A program made the position numbers and the translations under genes. A DNA stretch of 64,000 nucleotides from positions 1-64,000 of the forward strand of contig NZ_JAHLEM010000017.1 in NCBI RefSeq assembly GCF_018883605.1, read 5' to 3'. Every line of letters begins with the position of its first letter. Within the stretch, counting starts at the first letter, position 1. Below are positions 1,902 to 21,002 of this stretch, one piece after another. The notes beneath the pieces are model-generated. The model saw only the letters and a program-made list of their open reading frames with translations, was not told the origin of the DNA and did no database searches. The stretch comes from Streptomyces niphimycinicus. GTDB lineage: Bacteria > Actinomycetota > Actinomycetes > Streptomycetales > Streptomycetaceae.

Positions 1902-1955
1902 TGTTCCTTCAGCCGGGGTGGCGGGATTTGAACCCACGACCTCTTCCTCCCGAAC
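1902..1955 (+). repeat. tRNA-Pro 3'-half fragment, att-like copy 1
   Basis: 54 bases that match the 3' half and downstream flank of the tRNA-Pro gene at 22959-23010 with about two differences. The orientation is the same. It ends inside the anticodon-loop region, where the match is lost. This is the pattern left when an integrative element inserts into a tRNA 3' end. I read it as the far (left) end of the first island element. Confidence 0.75.
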
Positions 1956-2038
1956 TACGGGCCGGGCTGTCGCTGAGGTCTGCTGGGCTGGTCAGCGGGT
2001 CGGCTAGGGCTGGTGTCGGTGGGCTGCGGTCGCGGTGG

Positions 2039-2061
2039 TTGCTGTACTTCGCTGCTGTACA
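2039..2061 (+). repeat. paired GCTGTAC arm-type repeats, left
   Basis: TTGCTGTAC at 2039 and TGCTGTACA at 2053, 14 bp apart, about 80 bp inside att-like copy 1. The same pair with the same 14-bp spacing recurs at 4101-4123 just before att-like copy 2. Such matched pairs next to cores resemble the arm-binding sites of tyrosine recombinases (inference). Confidence 0.5.
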
Positions 2062-2257
2062 GCACTCGCTGACCACGGCCTTAGAAGTTCGTCACCCCTA
2101 TGCAGTGATCAGTCCGACGACACCTATCCCCAGCCCGCCCAGTGCGCGGAGGAGTCTCGCGATACGGGCTGTGCGCCCACCCGTTGCCGTCAACGACTGC
2201 CGTCAAGCCAGCCATCTGACGGCTTCGTGACCCGTCGGGGTCCACAGCACGATCCGA

Positions 2258-2404
2258 ATGGATCACCGGACACTCGTCTTTCAGGAGCGGGCGCTGCTGG
2301 CGGAAATCGCGGCTATGGCTGATCGTTTGCGTGTGGAGCTGGAGGACGTGCGCGCGGAGGTGACGGAGCTTAAGAGGTCATCCCGCGGTGAGGGAAGCAA
2401 GTGA
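2258..2404 (+). CDS. possible small coiled-coil ORF (48 aa)
   Basis: ATG 2258 to TGA 2404, starting MDHRTLVFQERALLAEIAAM and continuing with a heptad-like, strongly charged helix (LRVELEDVRAEVTELKRSS). The upstream GATCCGA is a poor ribosome site and I recognise no family. The amphipathic pattern is better than chance for high-GC DNA, but it could be a remnant of a larger gene. It occupies most of the otherwise gene-free stretch between the IS remnant (ends 1837) and the ricin lectin (2472). The rest of that stretch holds the att copy and arm repeats. Confidence 0.25.
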   Translation: MDHRTLVFQERALLAEIAAMADRLRVELEDVRAEVTELKRSSRGEGSK

Positions 2405-2471
2405 GCCACATGCGCTCCCGTCACCATCTCCTGGTAGCGGGGTGCATGTGACCGCACTGGGGAGTGTTGGC

Positions 2472-2978
2472 TTAGCCGAGTCGGAAGTGCTGGTTGGAGT
2501 ACTCCACACAGTCCCACTGGACCAGCGCGGCGTCGTTCTGGGTGCTCTGGCCGCTGACCGACAAGCACTTACCGCTGTGCCGAGCTTCGATGGAGAAGTA
2601 GCCGCTGTCCTTCTGGACGAGCCTCCATTCCTGGTTGGTGCCGTTCACGCAGTCCCACTGGACCACCGTGGCGCCGTTTTGGACACTCGCGCCGCTGACC
2701 GACAAACACTTGCCGCTGTTCACGGCACTGACCGTGTAGTAGCCAGCGCTGGTGGCCACCAGCTTCCACTGCTGGTTGGTGCCGTTCACACAGTCCCACT
2801 GGACCGCAGCAGCACCGTTTTGGGTGCTCGCACCCGCGACCGACACGCACTTCTGGCTGTTGCGGGCCACCAGTTCTGCGGTGAACGTGGCGGCGGAGGC
2901 GGTGGGGGCCTGCACCCCTGTGATCAGAGCCGCCGACACCACAGCGGTGACGGCTAAGGCCCAGCGAGGGAACTTCAT
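2472..2978 (-). CDS. secreted ricin-B-type (CBM13-like) lectin
   Basis: A 168-residue protein starting at ATG 2978, with GGAG 8 bases upstream. It begins MKFPRWALAVTAVVSAALI followed by APTASAA, a signal peptide. The mature part is a single beta-trefoil of three near-identical repeats. Each has K-C-x-S-V-x-G-x-S-x-Q-N, then V-Q-W-D-C and N-Q-x-W, the QxW signature of ricin-B lectins. The third repeat is more divergent (N-Q-H-F). No catalytic domain is attached, so it should be an extracellular sugar-binding protein. The frame is open upstream to 3215, but that part looks like coiled coil followed by low-complexity sequence and is probably not translated with it. It lies between the att copies of the first element, next to the truncated recombinase. 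The role is unknown. Confidence 0.85.
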   Translation of the reverse strand: MKFPRWALAVTAVVSAALITGVQAPTASAATFTAELVARNSQKCVSVAGASTQNGAAAVQWDCVNGTNQQWKLVATSAGYYTVSAVNSGKCLSVSGASVQNGATVVQWDCVNGTNQEWRLVQKDSGYFSIEARHSGKCLSVSGQSTQNDAALVQWDCVEYSNQHFRLG

Positions 2979-3128
2979 GGCGGCTCCAAGGAGTGGCATG
3001 GACTCGACGCCATCAGTGATATCGGAGACAACTGGACTCTCGGTCGACCGAGAGCTGTCCGCGATTACCGCTCTGTCTGGCCCGCCAGCGACGCTCGAAG
3101 CGGATGCGTGAGCCCGGCCGTGCACGAC

Positions 3129-3163
3129 GGCATGACGTAGAGAGGGGCGGTCTACGTCATGCC
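3129..3163. promoter_or_regulatory. 13-bp perfect inverted repeat
   Basis: GGCATGACGTAGA at 3129-3141 and its exact reverse complement at 3151-3163 surround a 9-base loop. It lies about 150 bp upstream of the lectin start and 155 bp upstream of the recombinase reading frame, in the otherwise gene-free 2979-3317 stretch. It has no T-run, so I favour an operator-like site over a terminator. Confidence 0.45.
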
Positions 3164-3317
3164 GCGACTTCAGTTCGGCAACTTCCTGCTTGAGGCTCTG
3201 GACCTCCGCGTTCAAGGTGCGGAGCTGGTCCCGGACCTCTAGGAGTGCTTCGCTGATGGTCCCGGTGGGTTCTGCGCTCGGGGTCAGTGCTGCCGCCAGA
3301 CCCTCTCGAAGCGTTCG

Positions 3318-4097
3318 GTGAACGATGCCCGTACCGTGTTGCGGAGCGCGCTGGGCAACGCGGTGGTCGAAGAGCTGATTTCGAAGAACGTGGCACAGAT
3401 GATCAAGGTCCAGCGGGCGCGGCGGAAGCGGCCGGATCCGTGGTCGGTGGAGGAAGCCTGCTCATTCTTGGAGAACGCCCGGGCGATGCGGGACTACCTC
3501 TATGGGGCGTACGTCCTGGTCCTGGTGCTCGGCCTCCGCAAGGGGGAGGTGCTGGGCCTCACCTGGTCGGACGTGAACCTTGACGCGGGCGAGCTGCGCA
3601 TTCAGCACCAGCTCCAGCGCGTACGGCGGCGGCTGCTCCACTCGGACACCGCCAAGACCGAGGCTTCTGAGGCGGTGCTTCCGCTGCCGGATATCTGCCT
3701 GGCGGCTCTCCGCCGCCGGCAGCAGGATCAGGCATCCGCGAAGACCGCGGCGGGGGAGTCGTGGACCGCTTCGGATTTCGTCTTCACCACCCGCTTCGGT
3801 ACGCCCATTGAGCCGAGGAACTTCAACCGGGAGTTCAACCGACGCTGCGACCGGGCCGGGGTGCGGACGATCCGGGTGCATGACACACGTCACACCTGCG
3901 CGTCGCTGCTCGCCGCGATGGACGTGCACCCCCGGATCGCGATGCAGATCCTCCGGCACTCGGAGATCGCGGTGACGATGGAGGTCTACACCCACGTTCC
4001 GTCCGACGGGACCCGCCGGGCGCTGCGCAAGCTGGGTAAGGCGCTGGACCGCGCCAGCAAGCGGAAGCCGAAGAAGGGCGATCGGCAAGAGCCGTAG
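3318..4097 (+). CDS. tyrosine recombinase (integrase), N-terminally truncated
   Basis: The C-terminal catalytic domain of a phage/ICE-type integrase, 259 residues from GTG 3318. Visible catalytic residues are the Arg in GLRKGEVLGL, HDTRHTCASLL (H-x-x-R), LRHSEIAVTM and the Tyr nucleophile in MEVYTHV. Family-like sequence continues upstream without a start codon (C-C-R-Q-T-L-S-K-R-S-V from about 3287) and then disappears. The arm-binding and most of the core-binding domain (about 120 residues of a usual 380-400) are therefore missing. GTG 3318 is only the first available start. The protein probably cannot catalyse integration alone. It is followed at once by arm-like repeats, a strong hairpin and att-like copy 2, the usual int-attP order. 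Confidence 0.8.
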   Translation: MNDARTVLRSALGNAVVEELISKNVAQMIKVQRARRKRPDPWSVEEACSFLENARAMRDYLYGAYVLVLVLGLRKGEVLGLTWSDVNLDAGELRIQHQLQRVRRRLLHSDTAKTEASEAVLPLPDICLAALRRRQQDQASAKTAAGESWTASDFVFTTRFGTPIEPRNFNREFNRRCDRAGVRTIRVHDTRHTCASLLAAMDVHPRIAMQILRHSEIAVTMEVYTHVPSDGTRRALRKLGKALDRASKRKPKKGDRQEP

Positions 4098-4100
4098 AGG

Positions 4101-4123
4101 TTGCTGTACTCCGGTGCTGTACA
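4101..4123 (+). repeat. paired GCTGTAC arm-type repeats, right
   Basis: TTGCTGTAC at 4101 and TGCTGTACA at 4115, with the same sequence and 14-bp spacing as the pair at 2039-2061. It begins three bases after the recombinase stop codon and ends 47 bp before att-like copy 2. Confidence 0.5.
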
Positions 4124-4127
4124 ACGC

Positions 4128-4163
4128 AGAGGGCCACCTACCAAAACTGGTAAGTGGCCCTCT
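4128..4163 (+). terminator. strong hairpin after the recombinase
   Basis: AGAGGGCCAC and GTGGCCCTCT form a 10-bp perfect outer stem. TACCA and TGGTA continue it after one mismatch, with loop AAAC. It lies 31 bp past the recombinase stop, directly before att-like copy 2. It probably ends recombinase transcription and insulates the att site. Confidence 0.65.
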
Positions 4164-4170
4164 GACCTGT

Positions 4171-4216
4171 GTCGGGGTGGCGGGATTTGAACTCACGACC
4201 TCTTCGTCCCGAACGA
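4171..4216 (+). repeat. tRNA-Pro 3'-half fragment, att-like copy 2
   Basis: 46 bases identical to tRNA-Pro positions 22968-23013 except one C-to-T change. The match stops right after the anticodon-stem region. It has the same orientation as the tRNA gene copy. It marks the junction between the small recombinase-bearing element and the larger defence block. Confidence 0.8.
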
Positions 4217-4318
4217 GGTCCGGGCGCCGATCGGGTCTGCATGGATGACGTTTGTGCTGGTCAGAGGATTGGCTCTGACGGGTGTGCCGTGGTGTCGCGG
4301 GGCCTCCGGGAGCGGGTC

Positions 4319-4337
4319 GGCTCCCAGATGGCTCCCA
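4319..4337 (+). repeat. paired GGCTCCCA arm-type repeats, left
   Basis: Two GGCTCCCA octamers starting at 4319 and 4330 (11-bp spacing), about 100 bp inside att-like copy 2. A pair with identical spacing and orientation lies at 22878-22896, just inside the intact tRNA-Pro gene. This suggests that 4.2-23 kb was one element (inference). Confidence 0.5.
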
Positions 4338-4343
4338 GGCACC

Positions 4344-5693
4344 TCAGGTCAGCACGCGCATGGCGAGCACGGACCCGTCAGAGTCCACCGACACGGGACC
4401 TTGCCACTTGCCGTCCCACCTGTCGACGGGCCAACTGGCTCGTCGGGCATGGACCTCACGGCGGTACTGCTCCACTTGGCCAGCTTCAAGGTGGCGGAAG
4501 AGGTCCTCCGCGACCCCGGAGAACGCCTCCACACGTGTTCTGTTCAAGCGGAAGACGTGGTCTGTGCCGACGAACCGGATACCTAGGAGCCTCTGTCGTG
4601 CGTCCTGGACACTGCCTGTGGCCGCGTGAGCGAAGCCGGTGAAGTGACGCACCCCTTGCCTCTTGGTCAGGTACTGGACGGTTGCCTCGCCGTCGCCGGC
4701 GAAGGCGGTCAGCCCAGCGGCGGCTGTGCGGGCGAGGACGTGCCGGAACCACTCGTAGCGTTCTGGCGTGACATGGAAGCCAGGCTCAGGTTGAGGTTGC
4801 CTGCCTCCCTCGGCCAGCGGCTGGATCCCCGGATAGAAGTTCTCGTCCTCGATGAAGTGGTCCAGATTCCTGTCGGCGGAGCCTGCAGAGCTGCTTAACC
4901 AGCCGCCCTTTCCATCGAAATGCAGGGCGTGGACAGTGAGAGGACCCTCCACGGGCAGCTCGGTACTGAATACCAGGCTCGGCGTCTCGTTCCATGATCC
5001 GATGTGCACCGCCTCTACGTGTGCTGAGGCAGATGCGAGCTGATCGTACGAGGCCGCGGCGTTGCTGTGGTTGCCCTTGGACTCGATCGTGAAGACCCGT
5101 GACGGCTCTCCAGGCTTCCAGACCTCGGCGAAGAACCTCGGACGATACCGGTAGCCCGATCGAGGTCCCTTGTCTCTGCTGGTCAGGGCCCAGCCCGCCC
5201 GTAGGGCCGTATCGGCCGGGACGATTGAAACGACGTGACGCGGATAGCGGCGGCTCAGGACCTGCTTGGCGAGGGCCAGAGAAAAGCCGATCCCGAGTTC
5301 CCCTGACTGGAGTGCCTTGTAATAGTCGGCCGTTTCGCGGCCCTCGGCCGAGAGCTTCATGTAGGTGTCCGAGCCACCGGTCAGGGCTTGGCTGTATTTC
5401 AGGCTTCCCCAGTGCTCGGCGAGTCCGCGACCTGCACCTCGCCGAGCGAGAGCGATTGCCCGACCGAGCGTGTGAAGCACATCCCAGGGGGCCAGACGGA
5501 GGGAACCGACTTCCACCGCGGGTATGACCTGGAGCTTCGGCTTGCGTCGCAGAGCGTCGAGTTCCTTCTCCTTCCTCTTCTCGTCATCCTCGGCGCCTGC
5601 CGCGTCCACACTGCCGACCAGTGCCATGGTTGAGTGGGTTGCGACGTTCGATGGCTGCGAAAGCTCCGTCAGTACATCTGCTGCGGGCTTCAA
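4344..5693 (-). CDS. unrecognised 449-aa protein, possible PD-(D/E)xK nuclease; third gene of helicase operon
   Basis: I do not recognise the family. The start is TTG 5693, chosen for the excellent AAGGGGGAAG ribosome site 4 bases upstream. The N-terminal 50 residues are acidic and lysine-rich (DDEKRKEKELDALRRK). Around residues 188-208 a strand-like FFAEVW is followed by VFTIESKGNHS. The spacing of that E-x-K behind a hydrophobic strand resembles the core of PD-(D/E)xK nucleases, but I cannot confirm the fold. A positively charged C-terminal helix and a W-rich tail (WPVDRWDGKWQGP) follow. It lies 67 bp downstream of the HEPN-like gene on the same strand, so it is very probably co-transcribed with the helicase. 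No membrane segment or signal peptide is visible. Confidence 0.75.
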   Translation of the reverse strand: MKPAADVLTELSQPSNVATHSTMALVGSVDAAGAEDDEKRKEKELDALRRKPKLQVIPAVEVGSLRLAPWDVLHTLGRAIALARRGAGRGLAEHWGSLKYSQALTGGSDTYMKLSAEGRETADYYKALQSGELGIGFSLALAKQVLSRRYPRHVVSIVPADTALRAGWALTSRDKGPRSGYRYRPRFFAEVWKPGEPSRVFTIESKGNHSNAAASYDQLASASAHVEAVHIGSWNETPSLVFSTELPVEGPLTVHALHFDGKGGWLSSSAGSADRNLDHFIEDENFYPGIQPLAEGGRQPQPEPGFHVTPERYEWFRHVLARTAAAGLTAFAGDGEATVQYLTKRQGVRHFTGFAHAATGSVQDARQRLLGIRFVGTDHVFRLNRTRVEAFSGVAEDLFRHLEAGQVEQYRREVHARRASWPVDRWDGKWQGPVSVDSDGSVLAMRVLT

Positions 5694-5760
5694 CTTGCTT
5701 CCCCCTTACGAATCGCACGAGTGGTACAGGTCGACGCGGTGCTTTAGCGGGATTGTGTTC

Positions 5761-6591
5761 TTAGGTCTGGGAGTCAGCGAGGTCGTTCAGGACCGCATTG
5801 ACTACTGGCCAGCACATGTCCAGCGTGTCGCGGTCCGGAGTATGGGCTTGGCGTATTTCTGCGCGCGGGTGGACGAAGTTGCGGTATTTGCGAAGCTCGT
5901 GGCAAAACCGCTGGACGTCGGCACCGATCCAGCCGGCGTCATGACAGGTTTTGATCAAGGTGTCGAGGTTCACGTTGTCCGGGGAGGTCCTGCCGAGCAG
6001 CGACGCGTTGCGCTCCTGGACCACGTGGACCAGGACGCCTTCGAGGAGGCTGCCGAGCATGATGATGGCGGCCACGTGAGCGCCGTTCGCGTAGCAGGTG
6101 CGCGCCTCGTCCAGTCGGTGCTGAAGGAGGTCGGCCATCTTCCGATCTCCGATGAGGTCGGTCATGGCTGCTTTGAGCTCGACGGGGCCTTGGCTGCCTG
6201 GGTGGGCGAGAGACGGATCGCAGGCGACGATGCGGGGGCGGCCGCCGGGGTTCTCCAGACGTGCCCCCTCGTGGACGAGGAAGGCGTTGACGGCAGAGAT
6301 GACAGCCGGAAGCTGGTTGGGTTCGTCGAAGTATTCTCGTGGGTCGGCGAGCCGGAGCAGTACCTTTTCCAGCTCAGTGGGCTCCTCTCGGCGCTCGGTC
6401 AGCCGGGCAAGCGTCCACTCCCTGCGATACCCACCGTCGTATTCCGGCACCTGCTGCCAGCCGGCATGTTCCAGGAATCGCGCGATCTCGAACCCCTTGC
6501 GGTAGTAGAGGTGCTCATCGCCGCAGATGACGCGGGCCAACTCCTCCAGGGTGTTGGCGTCCAAAATGCCGAGTGGGGACTGCAGGGTCAT
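5761..6591 (-). CDS. HEPN-like protein, middle gene of helicase operon
   Basis: 276 residues from ATG 6591. The start overlaps the helicase stop in an ATGA arrangement, so the two are translationally coupled. A longer open frame (to 6735) lies wholly inside the helicase gene and is not needed. The first 100 residues are mixed helical with aromatic-rich YYRKGFEIARFLEHAGW and YDGGYRREW. The C-terminal half is helical and ends with LRKYRNFVHPR at about 230-240. An R-N-x-x-H followed by Pro near the end of a helical bundle is typical of HEPN-type domains, many of which are RNases in toxin-antitoxin or phage-defence systems. Spacing differs from the strict R-x4-6-H unless an earlier Arg is used. 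It could instead be a structural HEPN/DUF4145-type protein. Confidence 0.75.
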   Translation of the reverse strand: MTLQSPLGILDANTLEELARVICGDEHLYYRKGFEIARFLEHAGWQQVPEYDGGYRREWTLARLTERREEPTELEKVLLRLADPREYFDEPNQLPAVISAVNAFLVHEGARLENPGGRPRIVACDPSLAHPGSQGPVELKAAMTDLIGDRKMADLLQHRLDEARTCYANGAHVAAIIMLGSLLEGVLVHVVQERNASLLGRTSPDNVNLDTLIKTCHDAGWIGADVQRFCHELRKYRNFVHPRAEIRQAHTPDRDTLDMCWPVVNAVLNDLADSQT

Positions 6592-9500
6592 ACCGGTCCT
6601 TTCGTCCTGTCGTCTTCGGTGTCGTCGTCTGCCATGCCGAGGGCAGCGAGCGGATCGGTCGTGTCCGGGCCATCGGGGGATTCCGTTGGGTCCTCGGCCA
6701 GTTCCTCGTTGGCGGAGAGGTCGAGCGGGGTCCACTGCATGCGGGCGGATGCGGAGTTCGAGTGCGACGCGCCGTCGGTGCCGCCGAACGTTGCTGGACG
6801 GATGCCCAGTCGGTTCAGCTCATCCCACAGCCCATCCAGTGCTTCGTCAGGGTCGAATCGGAACTCGCTCTCGCGGACACGCCAGAAGGTCCAGCCCACC
6901 CTCTGGAGTTCGCGCTCACGCCGCTGGTCATGCTGGATCTGTTCGGGCGTCGAGTGATACCGGTCGCCGTCGCACTCCACGGCCAGGCGCCCGCGTGCGC
7001 CTACGACGACGAGGTCAATGCGTTTGTTCCCCGCGGGGTACTGCGGGATGACGTGATATCCGCGATCCTTCAGACGCAGGTATACGTGCTGCTCGAAGAG
7101 TGATTCGAACGGCTTCTGCGGGACGTCACTCGATACTTCCCCGATGTCGTCGGCCTCTGCCAGCGCGGCAGGGGGGTTTTCCATGTAGGCAAGGAGGTTG
7201 AGACGCAGGTCTTCCTTCTTGAGGCGGCCCGGCGGAACCGAGTAGAAGAGTCGCATCTGGTCCTGGGCTCGGGAGGCAGCGACGTTGTACGCCTGCCGTT
7301 CGCTGCGTGCGCCCCCCGCGATGCGCGGCGGGTCGGCGGCGACCATCGACAGCAGGATGACGTGCCGCTCGTCTCCCTGGAACGACGCGGGGTTCCCCAC
7401 ACGGATCTGGTGGCGCTCACGCAGCGGAGCCGGAATACGTTCGTTGATCAGATGTTCCAGGAGTTTGACCTGGCCGACCGGTCCTTGGAGGGTGATGACC
7501 CCCATGGTCTTGTCCCGGTAGGCGGGATCCTCCACGAGCTGGGCCAGGCAGTCGACGATTGCCTCGGCTTCCTTCGGATTGCGGAGTCGGCTGTCGCGTC
7601 CCTGGGTGACGGCTCCCTCGACGAAGTGCGTCACGAGGGGATCGAGGCGCTCACCGCCGTACTGGCGCAGCGGCTGTAGCTTGTTGTTGTAGAAGGTCTG
7701 GGAGGACCAGCCGATGATCTCGGGCATGCACCGGAAGTGTTCCTCCAGCCGGATCACCTTCGGGAAGAAGGTGGACAACAGCTCGTAGAGGTTGGTGGCT
7801 GGGGTGTAGAGCTGGCGCAGCATGGGCGGCATGTCCGGCAGATGGGAGATGAGCCGGTCCTGGATGGCCTGCAGACGGCCCATGCCGCTGACCGGGGGTG
7901 CGCACTGCTTGTCGTCCCCGACGACAATCACACGGGGAGCGAGCCACAGCAGGAACAGCGCGTCCATGCCTGCCTGACTGGCTTCGTCCACGATGACCAC
8001 GTCGAATGCGTCTCGCTTGGGCAGCACCGTCTCGGCGACCTGCGAGATGGGCATGACCCATGCAGGTACCGCTCCTTGCGCCACCCTCATGGAGTCGTTG
8101 GCCGCGGAACGGAAGCGGCCTGCATTGCGGCCTTTGCCCTTACCGTACGAGGCCATGTGGTTGCGGTACGCCTGGAGTGCGGAACGCTGCTCCTGCGTCA
8201 TGCGCTGCAGACAGTGCAGTCGCCCCCAGGTGGCGGCGAGCTCACCTGTCAGACTCTCCAGATTCCTTTCGCACTGAGCTAGTTCGCCTTCAAGCTGACG
8301 CTCGCGTCCCGGTGTGCGCTGGCGACGCACGAACGCGGAGGCCCGTGCCCAGGCCCACGCCTCGGCCAGTGAACCGAGCCGCACCTCCCATGCGGGATCG
8401 CCGGGGTCCTCCGTCAGCCGGTCGGCGAGTAAGGGGTGCGCCCTGCGCACGCTGTCCAGAAGTACGCCGCACCGGCGTCGGCGGTGCTCACGCTGATGAG
8501 CCTCCCGCAATGCCTCGAGTTCCTTGGCGTAGCGGTCGATGTCCTGCTCCCGGACGGCCTGGGCAGCCGCCAGCGCTTCGGCCGCGGGATGGGAACTCTC
8601 CACCGGCGCGCGGAGTTGCTCCTCCCATGCCGCCAGCCGAGCCGTGGCCTCGTCCGCCGCCCGCCGACCGGAGAGAGCAGTCAGCGCGCTGGTGAAGTCT
8701 TGCCACGCGGACCGAGAGGTGAGAGCGATGTGCAGGCCGTGGCGTACGAGCAGTTCATCGATGCGTTCGCGTACGGCTCCAAACGCATTGATGTGCTCCA
8801 GGCGCGCGTATGACTCGCTCAGGGAAGCCAGACGGAGGTCCACCGGCCCTTCGGCTATTGGGACTCCCGCCTGTGCCCATCGCTCCGCGAGCGTGGCAAC
8901 CACCGAGTGAGCGCGCAGGTGGACGAGGACAGTGTCGAGATCCTCCAACGTTTGCGGAGGATGACCGTTCACGGTGCACGCGTCGAGGATCTCCTGAGCG
9001 GCCTTCTGTACCTTCGGGGCACGGAAGCTGCCGCGGACACGCAACTTGCCACCGGAGGCGAGATGATCGCGCAGCGCAGAGCCTGTCGTGAGCATCGCAT
9101 CGGCCCGCTCGGCGGAGAGCTGCTCGGGCACGATGACACGGTTCATCTCCTGCTCGTCCACCTGCTGGGAGACGGCAGCGAGCTCACCGGCGAGCCCGGA
9201 AACGCGACGCCACAGGGTGAGGTTGTCGCGGGAGAGCTGGTCTGTAAGGGCCTTGGTGGTCCACTTGTCGGCGTCCCACTGCCTGGCCGACGGTGGCAGA
9301 CCCAGGTGGTGCAGAGTCGTCCGGCATTCACCTGCGAGCATGGTCAGCTCATCAGTTACGGAAGCGTCGAGTCGGGCAAGGTCGTCGCGGATGGCAGCCG
9401 CTTCGCGAGACAGGCCGTCATCGGCGACGCGGCCGACTGCGAGGGCCTCGGCCAGCTCCTCGGGGGAGGGGAGGGTGTCCGGATTCGGCAGAGTGCCACC

Positions 9501-11234
9501 CGCACGTGGCTCAGCCGCGCCGTCGCGTAGCAGGCTCAACAGCTCCGCCGCCTGTGCGGGGGACAGCGGGGGAACGGAGGAGTCCGGCCCATCTGGAATC
9601 AGGCCGATCCAGGAATGACGCTCGGCGTGGTCTCGGACGCGCTGCACGATGGCCGCGAGGACACCGCCATATCCGGGGGCGATCTCCCGGTGCTGGCGGA
9701 CCTCCGCTTCTCGTAGCGCGATGACCTGCTCAGTGAGCGTGGCGATCCTCCCCCGCACCTCTTCCCGGCGTGCGGAAAGCCGACGGATATCGTCCCTCAG
9801 CTGCTCGGGGTCACTGGTGGCGACCTGATCGGTCAAAGCGTTGATCGTGCGTTCCCGTTCGTCCGCCCCGTCCTGCCGCGCGGAGCTGAGAAGGAGGACG
9901 CACAGGTCCCGCACTGCGGGCGGAAGCTTGTCTCGCAGGACCGTCAGGGCTTGGTCGCGGGCGCTGGTCACCAGGACCCTCTGCCCCTGGGCGAGCAGCG
10001 CGGAGACCAGGTTGGCGATGGTGTGTGTTTTGCCGGTACCGGGCGGACCCTGCACCACCACGCCCGTGTCGTGCTCCAGCCGCCGCAGCACACTCCGCTG
10101 CCGCTCGTTGGTCTTTCCCGGGAAGAGCGGGTCGTCTCCGAACAGGGGCGGGATGTCGTGACCGTCCCAGTTCGTGCGCTCCTCAGGATTCAGAGGTAGT
10201 ACGAGTTGTGCGAGCCCCAGCGGCGCGTGCGCCTCGGAGGCCACGCTGTCCGCGATTCGGTCGTAGAAGCTCAGCAGGGCGTTGCGGTCCCGTGGGCGCA
10301 ACACCAGGGCCGGGGCGTAGGTGAGCCGTGTGCCTACCTCCGGCTCGCGCGGCGGCTGCCACTCGGCGCTGAACGCCACCGGACGCTGCAGTACCCGCTC
10401 CTGCCACTGGGCCAACTGCTCCAGGGCTTCCGAGCCGAGCAGGTGGAGCGACTGGGCCGCGATCTCCTCCGCGAGCGCGGCCGAGCGCTCGGGAGCCCAG
10501 CCATCGTCGGTATCGAGGAACGCCTGGTCCTCCAGCCGTACTGCTCCGCCGGCCACGAGCCGGACCGTGACCCGGGCGGTCTTGCGGTCCACCGAGGTCT
10601 CTACCCGGTGAGTGAGCAGATGACGGTGGACGGTGTCGCCGCGCGGATCCCCCAACGTCAAGAGGCCGGTCGCCAGGACGAGTTCAAGCTGGTCATCCTG
10701 CTGTGTCAGCTTCTGGTGCCAGTGATAGACCTGTTCGTACAGCTCCCGAAGCGCTCGCTCTGCACGCTCCCGCTCCGCCCAGCGACGCCAGCGATCGAGC
10801 CATGGGCCGTAGGCCCGGAGCACTTCGGCCGCGTCTTCTCGGCGGACAGTGTGGTCCTCCGCCTCCTCCCACCACTGACGGCCGTCCGCGGCCCGCACCA
10901 GCTCTCGCCCTGGTCCCTCGACCGCGAGTGGCGGATCACCACTATCCGCATCCTGGCAATCCTCCGCGGCCACCCATCCATCGAGCATGTCGGGTAGGGG
11001 TGGCGGTGCTGTTTGCGGCACATGGTCGAGTGCGAGCAGCAGACCACCCTCGTCCTGGTCAGACGGGCGGCGTACGGAGGCAGGCAAGTTGGCCAGCCAC
11101 AGACGCTCCCGCGATCGTCGGTCGTCGCGCAGGCGGTTGTGGCTGCTTTGCACGACCTCTTTGAGGAAGCTGATCAGACCTGTGGTCTGCCCAATGACGT
11201 CAGAGTCGCTCGCAGCACGTCGCGGCACCTTCAC
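6588..11234 (-). CDS. SF1 DNA2-like helicase with C-terminal Vsr/DUF559-type nuclease domain
   Basis: About 1548 residues. GTG 11234 is chosen because GAGGGGAG lies 5 bases upstream; a TTG 20 codons earlier has no such site. A long N-terminal region precedes Walker A (GPPGTGKTHT, about residue 395). A wide, partly coiled insertion of some 650 residues separates it from Walker B (VVIVDEASQ, about 1080) and VIVVGDDKQCAPP. Helicase motifs V/VI follow (FQGDERHVILLS; AYNVAASRAQDQM). Residues 1390-1500 form a Vsr-fold endonuclease-like domain: IDLVVVGARGRLAVECDGDRYH then RELQRVGWTFWRVRESEF, with D-x-V and E-C-D in the catalytic strand. Helicase-nuclease fusions of this kind are common in phage-defence loci. 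It is first in a three-gene operon and overlaps the HEPN-like gene by 4 bases. Confidence 0.85.
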   Translation of the reverse strand: MKVPRRAASDSDVIGQTTGLISFLKEVVQSSHNRLRDDRRSRERLWLANLPASVRRPSDQDEGGLLLALDHVPQTAPPPLPDMLDGWVAAEDCQDADSGDPPLAVEGPGRELVRAADGRQWWEEAEDHTVRREDAAEVLRAYGPWLDRWRRWAERERAERALRELYEQVYHWHQKLTQQDDQLELVLATGLLTLGDPRGDTVHRHLLTHRVETSVDRKTARVTVRLVAGGAVRLEDQAFLDTDDGWAPERSAALAEEIAAQSLHLLGSEALEQLAQWQERVLQRPVAFSAEWQPPREPEVGTRLTYAPALVLRPRDRNALLSFYDRIADSVASEAHAPLGLAQLVLPLNPEERTNWDGHDIPPLFGDDPLFPGKTNERQRSVLRRLEHDTGVVVQGPPGTGKTHTIANLVSALLAQGQRVLVTSARDQALTVLRDKLPPAVRDLCVLLLSSARQDGADERERTINALTDQVATSDPEQLRDDIRRLSARREEVRGRIATLTEQVIALREAEVRQHREIAPGYGGVLAAIVQRVRDHAERHSWIGLIPDGPDSSVPPLSPAQAAELLSLLRDGAAEPRAGGTLPNPDTLPSPEELAEALAVGRVADDGLSREAAAIRDDLARLDASVTDELTMLAGECRTTLHHLGLPPSARQWDADKWTTKALTDQLSRDNLTLWRRVSGLAGELAAVSQQVDEQEMNRVIVPEQLSAERADAMLTTGSALRDHLASGGKLRVRGSFRAPKVQKAAQEILDACTVNGHPPQTLEDLDTVLVHLRAHSVVATLAERWAQAGVPIAEGPVDLRLASLSESYARLEHINAFGAVRERIDELLVRHGLHIALTSRSAWQDFTSALTALSGRRAADEATARLAAWEEQLRAPVESSHPAAEALAAAQAVREQDIDRYAKELEALREAHQREHRRRRCGVLLDSVRRAHPLLADRLTEDPGDPAWEVRLGSLAEAWAWARASAFVRRQRTPGRERQLEGELAQCERNLESLTGELAATWGRLHCLQRMTQEQRSALQAYRNHMASYGKGKGRNAGRFRSAANDSMRVAQGAVPAWVMPISQVAETVLPKRDAFDVVIVDEASQAGMDALFLLWLAPRVIVVGDDKQCAPPVSGMGRLQAIQDRLISHLPDMPPMLRQLYTPATNLYELLSTFFPKVIRLEEHFRCMPEIIGWSSQTFYNNKLQPLRQYGGERLDPLVTHFVEGAVTQGRDSRLRNPKEAEAIVDCLAQLVEDPAYRDKTMGVITLQGPVGQVKLLEHLINERIPAPLRERHQIRVGNPASFQGDERHVILLSMVAADPPRIAGGARSERQAYNVAASRAQDQMRLFYSVPPGRLKKEDLRLNLLAYMENPPAALAEADDIGEVSSDVPQKPFESLFEQHVYLRLKDRGYHVIPQYPAGNKRIDLVVVGARGRLAVECDGDRYHSTPEQIQHDQRRERELQRVGWTFWRVRESEFRFDPDEALDGLWDELNRLGIRPATFGGTDGASHSNSASARMQWTPLDLSANEELAEDPTESPDGPDTTDPLAALGMADDDTEDDRTKGPV

Positions 11235-11740
11235 CCGTCTCCCCTCGGCTGGTGGCGAACTTTTCAGAATGGAGTGCGAGACAGGGTGGGACAATGCATT
11301 TCAGGAGAATGGCGTGATCTATGCGCTGTGCAGGCCGGATCGGCGTGGTGGCACGAGGTAGATCTCCCGCCAGCGCTCACGCAGTGGTCGGAGAGAGCCA
11401 CACCGCAAGATGGCTGGTAGCGGGATTTGACCCCACGACGTTTTCATCCCGCATGAGGTTCGGGCGTGATCGACACTGACCTGCTGTTATTTTGCCTGGT
11501 TAGACGGTCTGGTTGCGGTGGTCTGGGGAGAGGGCGTGCGTCTAGCGATCACGAAGTCCGCTGCATCTCCATCTCTCCGGCAGCGTCATGCCGCGGCCGC
11601 TCGTCCATACCGTCCTGTGCCTCGCCCAGTGCTGTGATCCGTGGCTACGCGGCGCCTGCTGTCGGTGGCGGCAGCCGCAGTGCTCACCGTGAAAACTCGT
11701 GGAATCACGTGCTCGGTCGTGCCAGGCTGGGCGGCGTCGA
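11235..11740. other. intergenic region upstream of the helicase operon
   Basis: About 500 bp without a convincing gene between the helicase start and tRNA-Trp. It must hold the operon's promoter, for which I see no clear consensus. It also contains the degenerate tRNA-Pro fragment at 11416-11456. Base composition is somewhat lower in GC than its surroundings. Confidence 0.6.
11416..11456 (+). repeat. degenerate tRNA-Pro 3'-half fragment, att-like copy 3
   Basis: 41 bases matching the tRNA-Pro 3' half with about 7 mismatches (34/41). The following bases GAGGTTCGGGCG also resemble those after copy 2 (GAGGTCCGGGCG). It has the same orientation as the other copies. I read it as an older, decayed attachment scar separating the helicase cassette from the Wadjet cassette. 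Confidence 0.55.
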
Positions 11741-11816
11741 AGGGGTGTAGCTCAGAGGCCAGAGCGCCGGTCTCCAAAACCGGATGTCGCAGGTTCGACT
11801 CCTGTCACCCCTGCCA
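11741..11816 (+). tRNA. tRNA-Trp (CCA anticodon), island-borne
   Basis: A full cloverleaf can be drawn. Acceptor AGGGGTG pairs with CACCCCT, and the D stem is GCTC/GAGC. The anticodon stem CCGGT/ACCGG carries loop CTCCAAA (anticodon CCA), and the T arm is CAGG-TTCGACT-CCTG. The 3' CCA is encoded. Streptomyces already have an essential tRNA-Trp elsewhere (near secE/nusG). This one differs from the chromosomal gene as I remember it in the acceptor and D/variable regions, so it is probably an extra copy. It ends 3 bp before the stop of the converging 648-aa gene. Confidence 0.88.
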
Positions 11817-11819
11817 TCG

Positions 11820-13766
11820 CTACTTGTGCGGGGGCGTGGGCCAGGGTGTTCCGTTCGCGGCAGCGTCGAGGAGGTCGCCGAGGCGGAGCCATGCCGTGGG
11901 CCCCGCATAGCTGGCCGGGCTTGTAGCAAACCGTTGCCATGCTTCGGCGTTGTCGCTAAGGGCGGTGCGCACGACCGAGGTGACCGCTGGGTGCGCTGCC
12001 TGGCCGCGGGGGCCTCTGGCTTTGAGGGCGGTCCAGGCGGGCAAGGCGCGGGTCAGGTCGGCGTCGGTGGTGGGCAGGCTCAGCACGGCGCTCACCCACG
12101 CCTCTCGGAGGTTCGGGCCACCGCCCAGGCGTCGGCGGAGGTTCTGAGTGAGGTCCCGCAGTGCGCCCTGCGGGTCTGAGTGGCGGTTCAGCACGGCGGC
12201 GAAGGACACGTCGCGGCGGTAGACACGGGACGCGAAGGACAGCAGGGCCTTTTCCACGAGGGCGTCGTTGCCTTGGTGCCGTCGCACGTAGTCATCGAGG
12301 ACAGCGTCCGGGGCGCCCGCGAGGTCGCGTACAGTGACCTGGTCCGGCTTGCCGAGGGACGCGGTGCGCGCCGGGCCAGGGTCCGGGAGCGGTTCGGCGG
12401 TCATCCGCTCGATGGTGTCGAGGAGTTCACGCGCCTGCTGGACGTCCGAGTCCAGTCCGTACCTGCCGTAGTCCCGGCGCCCGGCCAGCGCTCGTTTTGC
12501 CTCCCGACAGATCAGGCGAGCCCTCTCCTTCACCTCCGGGGTCACCACTGGCAGGTGCTGCAGCAGGTCGCGCACCCAGCGCAGATCCTTCGCCGAGCGA
12601 ACCGGGGCCTTTGGGTCGGATTCCCACAGCATCAGAGCCACGGCCGCATGTTCGGCGAACTTCTGGGCCAGGGAAGCCAACTGGTCTTCTGAAGCTCGCC
12701 AAGAGTGAGGGCGCCCGTACTGCTGTGCCTGGTCGGGGTTGAGGATGTAACGCCACGTGCCGTCTGCCGCAAGTTCGGCGTGGGATATGGCAGCCCGGCA
12801 GCCGTAACGCAGGCCGTACTTGTCATCCGACAGGAGTTGGTCGATGCCCTTGCGCTGCTGGGGGCGGACCTCCGCCAGGTCACTCGCGAAGCGCTCCCTT
12901 ACCTCTTGTTCCGTTGCCCCGTCCCGGCGCATGCGGCACATCCGGGTGATGAGTACGGAGTGCGGGAAGGACGCGAGGTCGTCCTGGGCGATTTCCTCAA
13001 GGAGTCCTGGCTCAACGTCCCAGGGGATGCTGCCCAGCAGATGTTCTCGGACGACGTGTCCGGCATCGTTGTCGTCCGACCAGTCGACGAGTAGCCGGTG
13101 GTGTTCGGTATGCGTGGCCACCACCTGCTTCCACATGGTGCGCCAGGCCCGCTCGGCGGCTTTCCACCTCTCCAGCCACGTCGACGTGTCCTCCTCGCCC
13201 CTCTCATCGGGAACAGGGAAGGATGGCAGCAGATCGACAGCCGCAGTGATGACGCTGCTGTGCAGTCGATGCTGTCGCAGTACCAGTTGGGCATCCGTCG
13301 GAATGCCGAGCAGGTCCACCGTCATGGCTTGCTGGCCGGGCCCCCGCTCGCGCAGCGCCTCGGCGATGGCGTCAGCCAGGATGCCGCTCGCCTGCGCCGA
13401 ACCGAGGCGGCCGAGCTGGACGGCGGTGCAGCGCCTCAGCGACTCGTTCCGCAACTGCGGTGTGCAGGAGGAGCGCGAGAGAGCCATCAGTGCCAGATCC
13501 ATGGACGGTGCGTATAGCGGATCTGACTTCGGCGGCTTCCGGACCAGGTCGCTGTCGACGGCGGCCTCCAGCAGCCACAATGGAGCAGAGTCGCCGTAAG
13601 GGCCGCGTAACAGCGCTTCCAACAACTCCCGTCGCTCCAGCCCCTCCTCCATCGACCGAGCCTGCTCGGCGGCCATCCGCGAGGGCGGGTCATCTGCGGC
13701 GCTGTCCACGACGAGCGCGCACAGGAAGTTCAAGGGAAGACTGGGGGTGGCTCCACCGCTGTCCAT
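11820..13766 (-). CDS. unrecognised 648-aa helical protein
   Basis: I recognise no family. Start ATG 13766 (MDSGGATPSLPLNF) is chosen because CGGAG lies 5 bases upstream. The frame stays open to 13976 but that extension looks non-coding (S/R-rich, unstructured). The protein appears soluble and largely alpha-helical, with repeated leucine-rich helix pairs suggesting a HEAT/ARM-like scaffold. No Walker motif, nuclease signature, signal peptide or membrane segment is visible. Two lysine/arginine-rich stretches (CREAKRALAGRRDYGR at about 475; LTQNLRRRLGGG at about 570) could contact nucleic acid. Its stop codon is 3 bp from the 3' end of the converging tRNA-Trp gene. It sits between the helicase operon and the Wadjet operon, so a defence role is likely but unproven. 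Confidence 0.7.
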   Translation of the reverse strand: MDSGGATPSLPLNFLCALVVDSAADDPPSRMAAEQARSMEEGLERRELLEALLRGPYGDSAPLWLLEAAVDSDLVRKPPKSDPLYAPSMDLALMALSRSSCTPQLRNESLRRCTAVQLGRLGSAQASGILADAIAEALRERGPGQQAMTVDLLGIPTDAQLVLRQHRLHSSVITAAVDLLPSFPVPDERGEEDTSTWLERWKAAERAWRTMWKQVVATHTEHHRLLVDWSDDNDAGHVVREHLLGSIPWDVEPGLLEEIAQDDLASFPHSVLITRMCRMRRDGATEQEVRERFASDLAEVRPQQRKGIDQLLSDDKYGLRYGCRAAISHAELAADGTWRYILNPDQAQQYGRPHSWRASEDQLASLAQKFAEHAAVALMLWESDPKAPVRSAKDLRWVRDLLQHLPVVTPEVKERARLICREAKRALAGRRDYGRYGLDSDVQQARELLDTIERMTAEPLPDPGPARTASLGKPDQVTVRDLAGAPDAVLDDYVRRHQGNDALVEKALLSFASRVYRRDVSFAAVLNRHSDPQGALRDLTQNLRRRLGGGPNLREAWVSAVLSLPTTDADLTRALPAWTALKARGPRGQAAHPAVTSVVRTALSDNAEAWQRFATSPASYAGPTAWLRLGDLLDAAANGTPWPTPPHK

Positions 13767-14188
13767 GAGGCTCCGATTCGTGTTGGGGGACTTGCTTGAG
13801 CGTTCGTCCGAGTCCCTGTGTGGGCGGCTCACCGATTCCTGATTGAGCCGAGGGCCACTCCCGCCCTTCGGGGTGCAGAGCGTCCACCCATGGTGCCGTA
13901 GGACACTGACAACAACGTCGTTTACGGTCGATGCCAGCCGTATCGGGATCACTGCCCTGAATGCGCCCGCTGACACGCCTGCCGATGCGAGTTCCGATTG
14001 CCCGGCGAGCTGGTGGGGAGCTGGCGCCTCCTTGCCGGCTGCGGGACCTTAAGCCCGGGGCGGAACGGGAGCCGTTTGGGAGCTGGCCTGTCTAGTTCGG
14101 CGACTCTGCGAGAGATGCCTGTAATCCCGGCTACCCGCGCCAGCGCAACGCGCCGCGCCGGGTCAGGCGGCGATCGGGGCCTGCATTC
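13767..14188. other. intergenic region between the 648-aa gene and the Wadjet operon
   Basis: About 420 bp without a gene I can support. It lies downstream of the Wadjet operon and upstream of the 648-aa gene, so it must hold the latter's promoter. The only notable element is the inverted arm-like repeat at 14067-14083. Confidence 0.55.
14067..14083 (-). repeat. inverted copy of the GGCTCCCA doublet
   Basis: 17 bases that are the exact reverse complement of 22879-22895 (the arm-like doublet beside tRNA-Pro). The two copies lie in opposite orientation on either side of the Wadjet operon. It could be an inverted attachment arm left from an earlier rearrangement. Confidence 0.45.
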
Positions 14189-15451
14189 TCAGCTCAGGTC
14201 CGTCACCAGAAGGTCGAGGGTTGCTTCCTCGTGAAGGGCGATGCCCAGCCCGGTCATGGCAGGCGCCAGACCCGGATCCCAGCTCGCGGCGACGGGCTCG
14301 CCGGCGAGTGGAAGCTGGGGAACGCCCTGGGCCTGGGTTCTGGCGGCAAGCTGCTCGTAGTCCTCGGCGCTCAGCCGCCACGGGCGTGCGTCATAGCGGC
14401 GGATGATCCGGTTGGCCAATGCGATCCCAGGCCAGTCGAAGTCACCGTGATAGGCGAAGTGACAACCGCTGGCAGCCAGAGCATCCAGGAGGGTGAGAAC
14501 CGCCGTCGCGGCACTGCCGGACGTGCAGACGAGTGGCTGAGAGCAGGCCGCGTCAGCGGCGGCTTCCACGACGCGTGGGTTTTCACAGATGCGGACCATG
14601 GTGCCGGATGGCAACGTCAGGTGCAGGACATGCAAGTCACGCAAGGTGAGGTGGGTCTCCGCGTGATGCAGCGCTCTCTCGCGCAGCGCCCGTTCTCGCC
14701 AGCCATCACCGAGTGGCCGTAGACCGTAGGCGAGCACGGTACTGGAGACTTCGTCCGGAGTGACGGCCGCCAGTCGCCAGAGCGCGCGCCGTCCAGCCGC
14801 GTTATCGGGGAGTTCGGAGTCATGGGCGAGAGCGATGCCGCGTTGGACGAGTCGGGCAAGCCAGGTCCCGTCGTCCAGACCATGGGCCGACCCGGTCACT
14901 TCGGCGGCAAGCTCTCCCCGGCCGCGTATGCCTGACCTGCCAGGCCCCAGAAGCAGCGCCAGTACCTGCACGGCTTGCTGGAGGGTTCGGACCGCGGCCT
15001 CCGGTGTGATTCCTCTGGGTATCCCCACGCGTCGGAGGCCGTCGTACCACTGGCGAGCCCACGCCTCCGTCTTCAAGGGAGACGCCTCCAGCGAATCGGT
15101 GACTGAGGACCACACCATCTCGCGCCGAGCGACGGCGCCCGCCCGGATGGCCTGCCGGTCGGTGAGCGGTGGCCCAATCGCCTGGAGGGTCTCGACCAGC
15201 CCGAGTCCTGCGGCTGAGGCACGCAGGCGTGAATCCAACGCGTCGAGTCGTATCGTCACCGTGTCGCTGGTGAAAGCCTTACCCAAGAGCTGGGACAGGG
15301 CTGTTCTCTCCTGAGCGTCGATCTTGTTGATTCTCAGTGAACCAGTGGCTTGCAGACCGTTGCTCTCCAGACGCTTACGGACCGCTTCCCACAGACGGTC
15401 CAGGCCGGGCCGGGTGAGCCAGTCCCGCGTTTCGGTCGGCAGCGTGCTCAT
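14189..15451 (-). CDS. jetD: Wadjet JetD-like protein (DUF2399/TIGR02679, Toprim-type nuclease)
   Basis: 420 residues from ATG 15451, which overlaps the SMC stop as ATGA. The C-terminal half has the conserved DUF2399 block: ICENPRVVEAA, then PLVCTSGSAATAVLTLL, then FAYHGDFDWPGIALANRII. The acidic ENP and the H-G-D-F-D segment are the presumed Toprim metal-binding residues. In characterised Wadjet systems JetD is the nuclease that cuts closed circular plasmids once the JetABC SMC complex has extruded them. The TIGR02677/2678/2680/2679 set corresponds, as I recall, to Wadjet type III. It is the last gene of the operon. Length is normal for the family and all key residues seem present. Confidence 0.88.
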   Translation of the reverse strand: MSTLPTETRDWLTRPGLDRLWEAVRKRLESNGLQATGSLRINKIDAQERTALSQLLGKAFTSDTVTIRLDALDSRLRASAAGLGLVETLQAIGPPLTDRQAIRAGAVARREMVWSSVTDSLEASPLKTEAWARQWYDGLRRVGIPRGITPEAAVRTLQQAVQVLALLLGPGRSGIRGRGELAAEVTGSAHGLDDGTWLARLVQRGIALAHDSELPDNAAGRRALWRLAAVTPDEVSSTVLAYGLRPLGDGWRERALRERALHHAETHLTLRDLHVLHLTLPSGTMVRICENPRVVEAAADAACSQPLVCTSGSAATAVLTLLDALAASGCHFAYHGDFDWPGIALANRIIRRYDARPWRLSAEDYEQLAARTQAQGVPQLPLAGEPVAASWDPGLAPAMTGLGIALHEEATLDLLVTDLS

Positions 15452-19680: not shown

Positions 19681-21002
19681 AGCGGCAGCTCCTGCTGTAC
19701 GTCGGTCTCGGGGCGTCCCCGGGCAGCTTTGCGAACGGTGACCTGAGTGGCGTAACGGGCGGCAGCGGCGAGAAGAACCAGGCCGGTTTCCTCCTCGCGC
19801 GTCCCTGTGACGTCCGTGACAGAACGATCTTCTGGGACCCTTTCGTCGTATCCCTCGGGCAAGCCCTGTCCCTGAGAGCGGAGTCGGCTGACGCGGGCCA
19901 CGAGCCGCATGCGCGACAGCAAGTCCAGTACGGCGTCGCGCAGGGCGGTCTGGTCCTCCAGGTATCCGCGCTGCCAGTTGCTCCGCCGTCCGTACTCCTC
20001 GACGAGTTCAGCCAGCAGCTCGTCCACCATCCCGTCGGGAACGGCGACACCGATCACCAATCGGCCCCCCGTCGCCGGATGTCCCGGACTGTCGGGCCGC
20101 AGGCGCTCCACCAACTGCTCCAGCAAGAGCAGCGCGGCCTGCGCGACGGTTCCGGTGCCGGGGAGGTGCACATCGGTCACTTCCTCCTCGGCGTCGACCA
20201 GCACCACCCCCTCAGCCCGGATCTCGGCCTCCAGACCCAGAAGTTCGGAGAACGCCTGGGCTTCCCTGCGCTGCCGGGTACGCAGCCAGTCACGCTCGGC
20301 GTCCGTCAGATCGTCGAGGTACACGGCCGGCGTCTCCACCAGCATTCGGCGGACGTACGTGCGAGGACCGCCGAAGCCGGGGTCCGCTGCTCTCCGTACC
20401 AGGTCAGTACCGTCCCGGCTTTGCGCGAGGGGACCGGCGACGACAGCGCGGGCGATCTCTCGGTCGATAGTGATCAGCGCTTCGCCGCCGTCCTCCTGAG
20501 TGACCGCGTTGACGCTGCCTTCGGTTTGGATGAGCACGCCCCAGTCGACCAACTGGCGCAGCGCTGCGGCCAGAGTCCGCTTCTCCGCCGCCCGGCCCGT
20601 GCCCTCCAGCTCAACGCCGGCGTCGGCTGCCGCGGCTTTGATGTCGGCGACCAATCGTGACAGCAGCAGTTGCTCCGGAGCTGTCACCAGGACCGACAGA
20701 GCCAAGGCCAAGCAGGCGTAGGTGCGTGGGGTGAAGGGCGTGCCGGTGGAACGCTCCAGCCGGTGTCCCGCGCCGGCGCCCAACCCAGCTTTGAACAGCC
20801 GAGCATAGGAGGTGTCGACGAGGAGCTGGTAGCCGAGGACCTGCTGGAATCGCTTCGCCAGCCAGTCGGCATGCCTGCGGATCAGTGGAAACAGATCGGA
20901 GTGTGGCCCGGCCGCTGTCACCAGCGGGTGAACGAGCAGCAGTCTGGCGGCACTTCGGCGCTCGGCTGCAAGGGCGACATCATGGGCTGAGGGAAGGGTC
21001 AC
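19677..21002 (-). CDS. jetB: Wadjet JetB-like protein (DUF2398/TIGR02678)
   Basis: 441 residues from GTG 21002, which overlaps the upstream stop as GTGA. The start S-A-A-R-L-L-L-V-H-P-L-V and the middle FKAGLG plus RTYACLALALSVL are characteristic of DUF2398 proteins. A YVRRMLVETPAVYLDDLTDAERDWL segment, typical of the family, follows. In Wadjet complexes this is a kleisin-interacting winged-helix (KITE-like) subunit joining the kleisin-like JetA to the SMC heads. No catalytic motif is expected and none is seen. It is co-transcribed and translationally coupled on both sides. Confidence 0.88.
   Translation of the reverse strand: MTLPSAHDVALAAERRSAARLLLVHPLVTAAGPHSDLFPLIRRHADWLAKRFQQVLGYQLLVDTSYARLFKAGLGAGAGHRLERSTGTPFTPRTYACLALALSVLVTAPEQLLLSRLVADIKAAAADAGVELEGTGRAAEKRTLAAALRQLVDWGVLIQTEGSVNAVTQEDGGEALITIDREIARAVVAGPLAQSRDGTDLVRRAADPGFGGPRTYVRRMLVETPAVYLDDLTDAERDWLRTRQRREAQAFSELLGLEAEIRAEGVVLVDAEEEVTDVHLPGTGTVAQAALLLLEQLVERLRPDSPGHPATGGRLVIGVAVPDGMVDELLAELVEEYGRRSNWQRGYLEDQTALRDAVLDLLSRMRLVARVSRLRSQGQGLPEGYDERVPEDRSVTDVTGTREEETGLVLLAAAARYATQVTVRKAARGRPETDVQQELPL

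Follow-up and report, generated by a model that had tools for sequence, protein, structure and literature searches.

A helicase-nuclease and HEPN gene pair with a modular third gene is a probable defense system of Streptomyces

Introduction

Do three neighboring genes of Streptomyces niphimycinicus form one defense operon, or a smaller conserved unit with a movable companion? The genes lie in a stretch of 64,000 nucleotides (contig NZ_JAHLEM010000017.1, positions 1 to 64,000; referred to here as the window) and encode a helicase-nuclease of 1548 amino acids (aa), a HEPN protein of 276 aa, and a protein of 449 aa that we call p449. A preliminary description of the DNA had proposed the trio as a candidate new defense operon. 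Our data indicate that the conserved unit is the helicase-HEPN pair and that p449 is a modular third gene. The pair, joined in some genomes by p449, is probably an anti-phage or anti-plasmid system.

Results

The helicase-HEPN pair recurs across Streptomycetales

Genomes of the order were searched for p449, HEPN, and a caspase-helicase described below (391 genomes, apparently one set for all three, with 4, 6, and 3 candidates scored per genome, respectively); the resulting counts may be low because so few candidates were scored. The co-occurrence rates rest on these searches since loci L010-L037 had been collected by their similarity to p449. The HEPN hidden Markov model (HMM) matched 25 of the 391 genomes. 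We inspected all 25 neighborhoods and found that the helicase gene adjoins HEPN in 24, while the remaining genome (G316) holds a HEPN fragment only and no helicase. Broken pairs occur in G333, where the helicase is truncated, and in G448, where both genes are in pieces, and the helicase is more diverged in G236, G217, and G433 (27-29% identity over a C-terminal stretch). Of 29 called pairs, 16 have a spacing of -4 between the two genes and 27 have a spacing between -14 and +1, as given by a codon-bias gene-calling script trained on the window's genes, whose start sites are rough. A Streptomyces chartreusis plasmid carries the pair beside Wadjet II and without p449, and HEPN matches are present on further Streptomyces plasmids.

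An obligate trio is ruled out, since 17 of the 25 HEPN-bearing genomes lack a p449 match. The expected conserved co-occurrence in other genomes was upheld, with the pair rather than the trio as the conserved unit. HEPN and p449 are both present in 8 genomes versus 4.6 expected (25x72/391), and in 7 of these 8 the distance from p449 to the pair is at most 2.6 kb, with several arrangements. Co-presence at the genome level is only mildly above chance; the co-occurrence signal lies in adjacency. Judged by sequence identity, the pair and p449 are decoupled in divergence: relative to the window, HEPN and p449 are 91% and 74% identical in locus L011, and 70% and 72% identical in L010.

All three are genuine, unbroken genes that evolve under purifying selection, with ratios of nonsynonymous to synonymous substitution (dN/dS) of 0.14 for the helicase, 0.075 for HEPN, and 0.13 for p449 when compared with the relative L159. 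The three leftward open reading frames (ORFs), the 4-base ATGA overlap, and the 67-bp gap reported previously agree with the ORF list.

A predicted active helicase-nuclease is coupled to a HEPN protein

From its sequence, the 1548-aa protein is a UPF1/DNA2-like superfamily 1 (SF1) helicase with a C-terminal MTES_1575 (Vsr-type) endonuclease. Pfam places AAA_11 (4e-14) and AAA_12 (9e-18) as two halves separated by a long insert, followed by the Vsr-type nuclease at residues 1380-1473. The latter matches the MTES_1575 restriction endonuclease (REase) family at 1e-30 (106.1 bits versus a cut-off of 38.2), with its nuclease residues conserved, and DUF559 at 3e-5; the DNA2-like helicase with a Vsr/DUF559-type nuclease that had been recognized by eye is thus supported. 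Across 29 helicase rows, GPPGTGK, QGD, and the residues of the nuclease (FE, PQ, D, VE-x-DG, H) are conserved in 95% or more, and an active enzyme is therefore expected. These 29 rows, and the 30 HEPN rows used below, leave out truncated copies.

Sequence relatives of the helicase in the PDB include UPF1, SMUBP-2, and DNA2, and UPF1/DNA2-like helicases have housekeeping roles. Both points would suit a host RNA/DNA quality-control or stress-response module that is not directed against invaders. However, the pair is patchily spread (25 of 391 genomes), occurs on plasmids and in broken copies, and in the window has Wadjet and an integrase as neighbors within a tandem tRNA island; we consider a quality-control function improbable.

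The 276-aa protein matches Pfam DUF4145 at 5e-5 (23.7 bits versus a cut-off of 23.1). Residues 149-275 of its AlphaFold2 (AF2) model (predicted local distance difference test, pLDDT, 62; predicted template modeling score, pTM, 0.49) superpose on HepT with a Z of 11.8 and a root mean square deviation (rmsd) of 2.5 Å over 115 residues, and structural rows 1-29 are mostly entries with HEPN, HepT, Csm6, or HepS in their titles. Foldseek gave no E below 0.5 for this model, but its top nine rows are HEPN-type proteins. With the Pfam match and structural Z up to 11.8, the earlier assignment of this protein to HEPN holds. All 30 HEPN rows contain YRN[FL]VH.

HEPN toxins are classic effectors of toxin-antitoxin systems, and a toxin-antitoxin pair that stabilizes the integrated cassette would account for the match of HepT structures to the HEPN model, the 4-base coupling, and the tRNA repeats that bound the cassette. 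Against this, a helicase-nuclease of 1548 aa whose catalytic motifs are conserved would make an unlikely antitoxin, and gene calling found nothing else between the repeats; we consider this explanation improbable.

In a Prevotella conjugative element (L161:7031-7903, 7846-9342), a full-length HEPN homologue (25% identity over 303 aa) and a caspase gene (Peptidase_C14) overlap, and the homologue has no helicase match beside it.

The pair resembles single-chain helicase-Vsr-HEPN proteins

Giant proteins that join an SF1 helicase, Vsr, and HEPN have been proposed to be DNA-cutting systems with a HEPN suicide RNase (Anantharaman 2013, PMC3710099, excerpt). As described in that excerpt, the MTES_1575-type giants share with our locus an SF1 helicase, an MTES_1575 Vsr-type REase, a HEPN domain, and the lack of modification genes, but they are single chains with transglutaminase and winged helix-turn-helix (wHTH) domains and an Abi2/Swt1-type HEPN. 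Here the parts are divided between two genes, the HEPN is of the DUF4145 type, and no such extra domains were seen (for the helicase, among the best 25 of 34 Pfam matches). PADLOC matches of the helicase are all partial (PDC-S37, 5e-51; MkoA, 5e-37; Hhe, 2.5e-25). In Hhe, a single chain carries HEPN, helicase, and endonuclease. Alignments to the helicase and nuclease parts score 117.5 bits for Hhe (best stretch C-terminal) and 178.4 bits for ProA, far below the NCBIfam equivalog cut-offs of 2000 (Hhe) and 1500 (ProA) bits, and HEPN is here encoded by a separate gene. We read the helicase-HEPN pair as a two-gene split of single-chain helicase-Vsr-HEPN proteins of the MTES_1575 type and Hhe.

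Mokosh pairs a helicase with a phospholipase D (PLD)-type nuclease; MkoA matches the helicase part (5e-37), but no PLD domain is among the best 25 of 34 Pfam matches. UPF1-like helicases with HEPN or Vsr effectors are found in CoCoNuT systems (PMC11090510, excerpt). According to the same excerpt, CoCoNuT types II and III resemble our locus in that a UPF1-like SF1 helicase is coupled to HEPN or carries a fused Vsr-like nuclease, while our cassette differs in having no McrB-type GTPase: it has three called genes, and no McrB family is among the Pfam matches listed. Hachiman, in which a sensor helicase restrains a separate effector nuclease (PMC12278908, excerpt), may be alike in its way of working, but HamA and HamB are not among the PADLOC matches listed for these proteins. 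The EACC1-caspase system (Kaur 2020, PMC7159879, excerpt) is linked to our locus in that its caspase-SF1-helicase version carries p449 as a neighbor in other genomes, yet the alignment of the two helicases is confined to parts of the helicase core (29% over 275 aa and 34% over 89 aa).

No PADLOC or NCBIfam model covers the combination, in keeping with the earlier remark that this exact trio was not recognized. We found no paper on the pair or p449 by title or abstract start among the matches listed from openly licensed PMC articles, nor were the helicase-HEPN pair or p449 found in excerpts of PMC9519451 or PMC10952713. HEPN, Vsr, and SF1 helicase are known to occur together in a single chain; what seems new is their division between two genes and the sharing of p449 as a partner.

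p449 is found beside several helicase operons and alone

The p449 HMM matches 72 of the 391 genomes; many of these matches are fragments, and most do not lie near the pair. In a phylum-wide sample of 296 genomes it matches 2, including the window's own genome. Near-full-length copies outside the window's genome number 43, of which 40 were fetched and that of G459 later. Among the 40 fetched regions, 6 adjoin the pair and 4 adjoin another SF1 helicase operon. p449 lies on the same strand and downstream of the pair in the window, L010-L013, L015-L017, L068, and L159, on the same strand and upstream in L014 and L070, convergent with the pair in L021, L101, and L158, and divergent on the helicase 5' side in L089.

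The second operon linked to p449 consists of EACC1 (Pfam 9e-5; 22.8 bits, just below the cut-off of 23.6) and a caspase-SF1 helicase (Peptidase_C14, 4e-18; AAA_12, 5e-32). p449 follows this operon at 55-68 bp in eight loci and is divergent in L023. In the diverged copies L155-L157, p449 is intact, broken, or a fragment and stands on the 5' side of the caspase-helicase; no EACC1 match was found at these three loci. The caspase-helicase occurs in 41 of 391 genomes, most without p449 beside it, and was not found in the window's genome. It shares 11 genomes with p449 versus 7.5 expected; the two are adjacent in 6 of the 11, two of the six with broken or fragmentary p449. In L026:5599-11422 and relatives, p449 is the third gene of the EACC1 and caspase-SF1-helicase operon, and, on visual inspection, the C-terminal end of the helicase resembles a degenerate Vsr-type domain. 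In L078, p449 lies 2.4 kb from a third operon that encodes a PNP-type protein and an SF1 helicase.

We built a tree of 58 p449 rows, leaving out duplicates (L069, L071, L072, L075, L037, L154), gene calls under 400 aa (L031, L032, L033, L035, L036), L034, which the gene caller missed, and L155-L160, which were fetched later. Label changes number 7 for the 14 pair-linked rows (6 imposed by well supported branches) and 3 for the 10 rows of other helicase operons (including L078, which shows no caspase domain). All three labels together require 9 changes versus a shuffled mean of 21.6. Linkage has therefore arisen or disappeared several times, yet is more clustered than chance.

Alternatively, p449 may not be a functional partner but a resident gene of integrative elements beside which defense operons land, so that adjacency marks an integration hot spot. 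Consistent with this, 34 of the 58 rows are unlinked (no pair or helicase operon within 6.5 kb in the fetched stretch), and the same p449 locus seems to occur in some genomes with the pair and in others without it: L014/L070 and L019 share a divergent Mrr-type neighbor, and L101 and L102 share an integrase-like one. p449 has an integrase or integrase-like gene next to it in the window (Pfam 1e-22), L019 (1e-5), and L101/L102 (8e-4 for L101), the two weak matches falling below the Pfam cut-off. Solo p449 also lies near ordinary genes such as aconitase and oxidoreductase. However, p449 follows two different helicase operons on the same strand within approximately 140 bp at many loci, ten of its residues are invariant in 58 of 58 rows, and its dN/dS is 0.13. 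Moreover, the linked operons are rare (HEPN in 25 and caspase-helicase in 41 of 391 genomes), yet they adjoin 10 of the 40 near-full-length p449 copies fetched from the genome survey when related helicase operons are included. We consider a hot spot without function unlikely.

Two general rules for p449 were rejected. It is not generally linked to tRNA genes, with an intact tRNA within 1.5 kb in 4 of 63 loci, and solo copies are not always linked to defense. Of 11 large neighbors picked, four look defense-related (a DruE-like helicase, a methylase with a specificity domain, a caspase-WD40 protein, and an AAA_21/AAA_15 ATPase) and seven do not or are uncharacterized (an acyltransferase, a histidine kinase, an aconitase, an oxidoreductase, a transposase, DUF5954, and one without a match). 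An Mrr-type restriction endonuclease gene is divergent from p449 in L014 (1696-2301), L019, L070, and L088, with or without the pair; the assignment is by Pfam for L014 and by clustering for the other three. In L035 (8217-11184), a broken p449 lies 644 bp behind a Wadjet II JetD gene.

p449 is a conserved family with a possible REase-like core

p449 has no family match in Pfam, NCBIfam, PADLOC, or PHROGs and no match in phages, plasmids, or viral contigs, and the best PDB hit of its profile is a beta-lactamase (E 0.23). Q128, E131, P184, E189, G206, H208, Q217, D377, R381, and R386 are invariant in 58 of 58 rows. An E-S-K motif had been singled out in this protein, but its E (E203) is E in only 2 of 58 rows, which rules it out as a catalytic motif and as a family feature; K205 is K in 49 of 58. 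Position 185, another presumed nuclease site, is mostly Q, D, or H. The catalytic D and (D/E)xK residues of PD-(D/E)XK nucleases were not found, and E131, E189, H208, and Q217 are invariant instead.

The p449 AF2 model (pLDDT 70, pTM 0.80) aligns weakly with enzymes of the REase fold, namely PaqCI (Z 4.7, rmsd 4.3, 134 aligned), SPARDA (3.8), EcoRV (3.5), LHK-Exo (3.4), and MspI (3.0), and by our reading has the helix-strand order of a restriction-endonuclease core. The model thus suggests a likely REase-like core, which we assign with low confidence. In immune systems, REase domains that lack activity have been suggested to act as nucleotide sensors next to NTPases (PMC12839542, excerpt), which is one possible role of p449. 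More broadly, it is a plausible but tentative proposal that p449 is a common, interchangeable helicase partner in Streptomyces immunity, with a non-canonical REase fold and an active or binding site formed by the invariant E131/E189/H208/Q217, which plugs into at least two unrelated defense operons with UPF1-like helicases (helicase-nuclease/HEPN and EACC1/caspase-helicase) and may serve helicases in trans when solo.

A proposed mechanism for the pair

We favor, with fair confidence, a two-gene immune module in which a helicase-nuclease is the sensor, HEPN the RNase effector, and p449 an optional accessory. By analogy with the MTES_1575 giants (PMC3710099), CoCoNuT (PMC11090510), and Hachiman (PMC12278908), we infer that the UPF1/DNA2-like helicase would load on and translocate along invading or aberrant nucleic acid, and that its C-terminal Vsr-type nuclease would cut DNA. 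The translationally coupled DUF4145 HEPN protein would be a ribonuclease effector held quiet by the helicase. Engagement of a target by the helicase would release or activate HEPN, and translation would stop in the infected cell. p449 may be an REase-like subunit, probably non-canonical or inactive, that binds nucleic acid or has a regulatory role, tunes target engagement, and is able to join more than one type of UPF1-like helicase operon.

Several observations weigh against parts of this scheme. HEPN RNases carry motifs in the range R-x4-6-H. In HEPN the invariant R-N-[FL]-V-H is R-x3-H, and the upstream R that would give R-x6-H is not invariant. RNase activity is uncertain because R-x3-H is shorter than the typical RxxxxH (PMC11090510, excerpt). 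The role of p449 in the pair may be minor or none, since most genomes with the pair lack it and it usually occurs apart from the pair. The structural Z of p449 are all below 5, with unrelated proteins at 4.7 ('sex pheromone precursor') and 4.0, and a Foldseek search of the PDB with the p449 model found nothing at E<=0.001. Kinship of p449 to the Vsr-type domain of the helicase was rejected (hhalign probability 0.7%, E 0.08).

The pair lies in a tandem tRNA-Pro island

Copies of the tRNA-Pro 3' end split the region into tandem cassettes (Table 1), and the 22-base core of this end matches the window four times with up to 3 mismatches versus 0.00 expected. The flanking tRNA-Pro fragments and the defense-island position beside Wadjet noted previously were both located, with an intact tRNA-Pro as their anchor and JetA2-JetD2 (type II) adjacent. 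Cassette 1 holds Wadjet II, a 718-aa protein, and an intact tRNA-Trp. Cassette 2, comprising helicase, HEPN, and p449, fills the interval between two tRNA-Pro repeats; gene calling in 4217-11410 yielded these three genes and none further. Cassette 3 (1912-4171) holds the tyrosine integrase and a ricin-type lectin protein and ends in a tRNA-Pro repeat. A comparable degenerate repeat (10 mismatches of 46) directly precedes the helicase in the relative L159; at this threshold, no tRNA-Pro-type repeat was found in most other loci checked.

Table 1. Coordinates of the pair, p449, and neighboring features in the window
Feature	Position	Strand	Details
Helicase-nuclease	6588-11234	-	1548 aa; ORF list, Pfam, PADLOC
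DUF4145 HEPN protein	5761-6591	-	276 aa; start shares ATGA with helicase stop (4 bases)
p449, modular partner gene	4344-5693	-	449 aa; TTG start, 67 bp downstream of HEPN stop
tRNA-Pro, intact, anchor of tandem island	22968-23042	-	
tRNA-Pro 3'-end repeat, left edge of helicase-HEPN-p449 cassette	4171-4216	+	98% identical
Degenerate tRNA-Pro 3'-end repeat, right edge of helicase-HEPN-p449 cassette	11411-11456	+	72% to 4171 copy
tRNA-Pro 3'-end repeat, outer edge of integrase cassette	1912-1957	+	3 mismatches of 46
Tyrosine (phage-type) integrase, adjoins p449	3318-4097	+	Pfam Phage_integrase 1e-22
Wadjet type II operon JetA2-JetB2-JetC2-JetD2, neighboring cassette	14189-23026	-	PADLOC; ORF extents; JetA start probably nearer 22645

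A purine-rich GGGGGAAG precedes the TTG start of p449. A sigma-70 promoter scan, which suits high-GC Streptomyces badly, found no promoter-like site, and a terminator scan found one terminator-like site, fewer than in shuffles. An IS110 transposase lies at 522-1688, near the outer tRNA-Pro repeat of the integrase cassette. The intact tRNA-Trp inside the island (11741-11816) may be a main tRNA-Trp copy since it is the sole full-length match in the draft genome, where two others are partial (84% and 78%). The 718-aa protein (11820-13976), between Wadjet and the helicase-HEPN-p449 cassette, has no match in Pfam, NCBIfam, PADLOC, or PHROGs, and matches in 5 of 100 genomes, including the window's own; two of these are in pieces.

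Discussion

If our reading of the helicase-HEPN pair is true, it would extend helicase-Vsr-HEPN immunity by a compact version made of two genes in Streptomyces. p449, with matches in approximately one fifth of the order's genomes sampled (fragments included), would be a component exchanged between defense systems that otherwise have only the helicase core in common. The pair and p449 would then provide a handle on how UPF1-like immune helicases recognize foreign nucleic acid and would demonstrate the trading of a shared subunit between defense modules.

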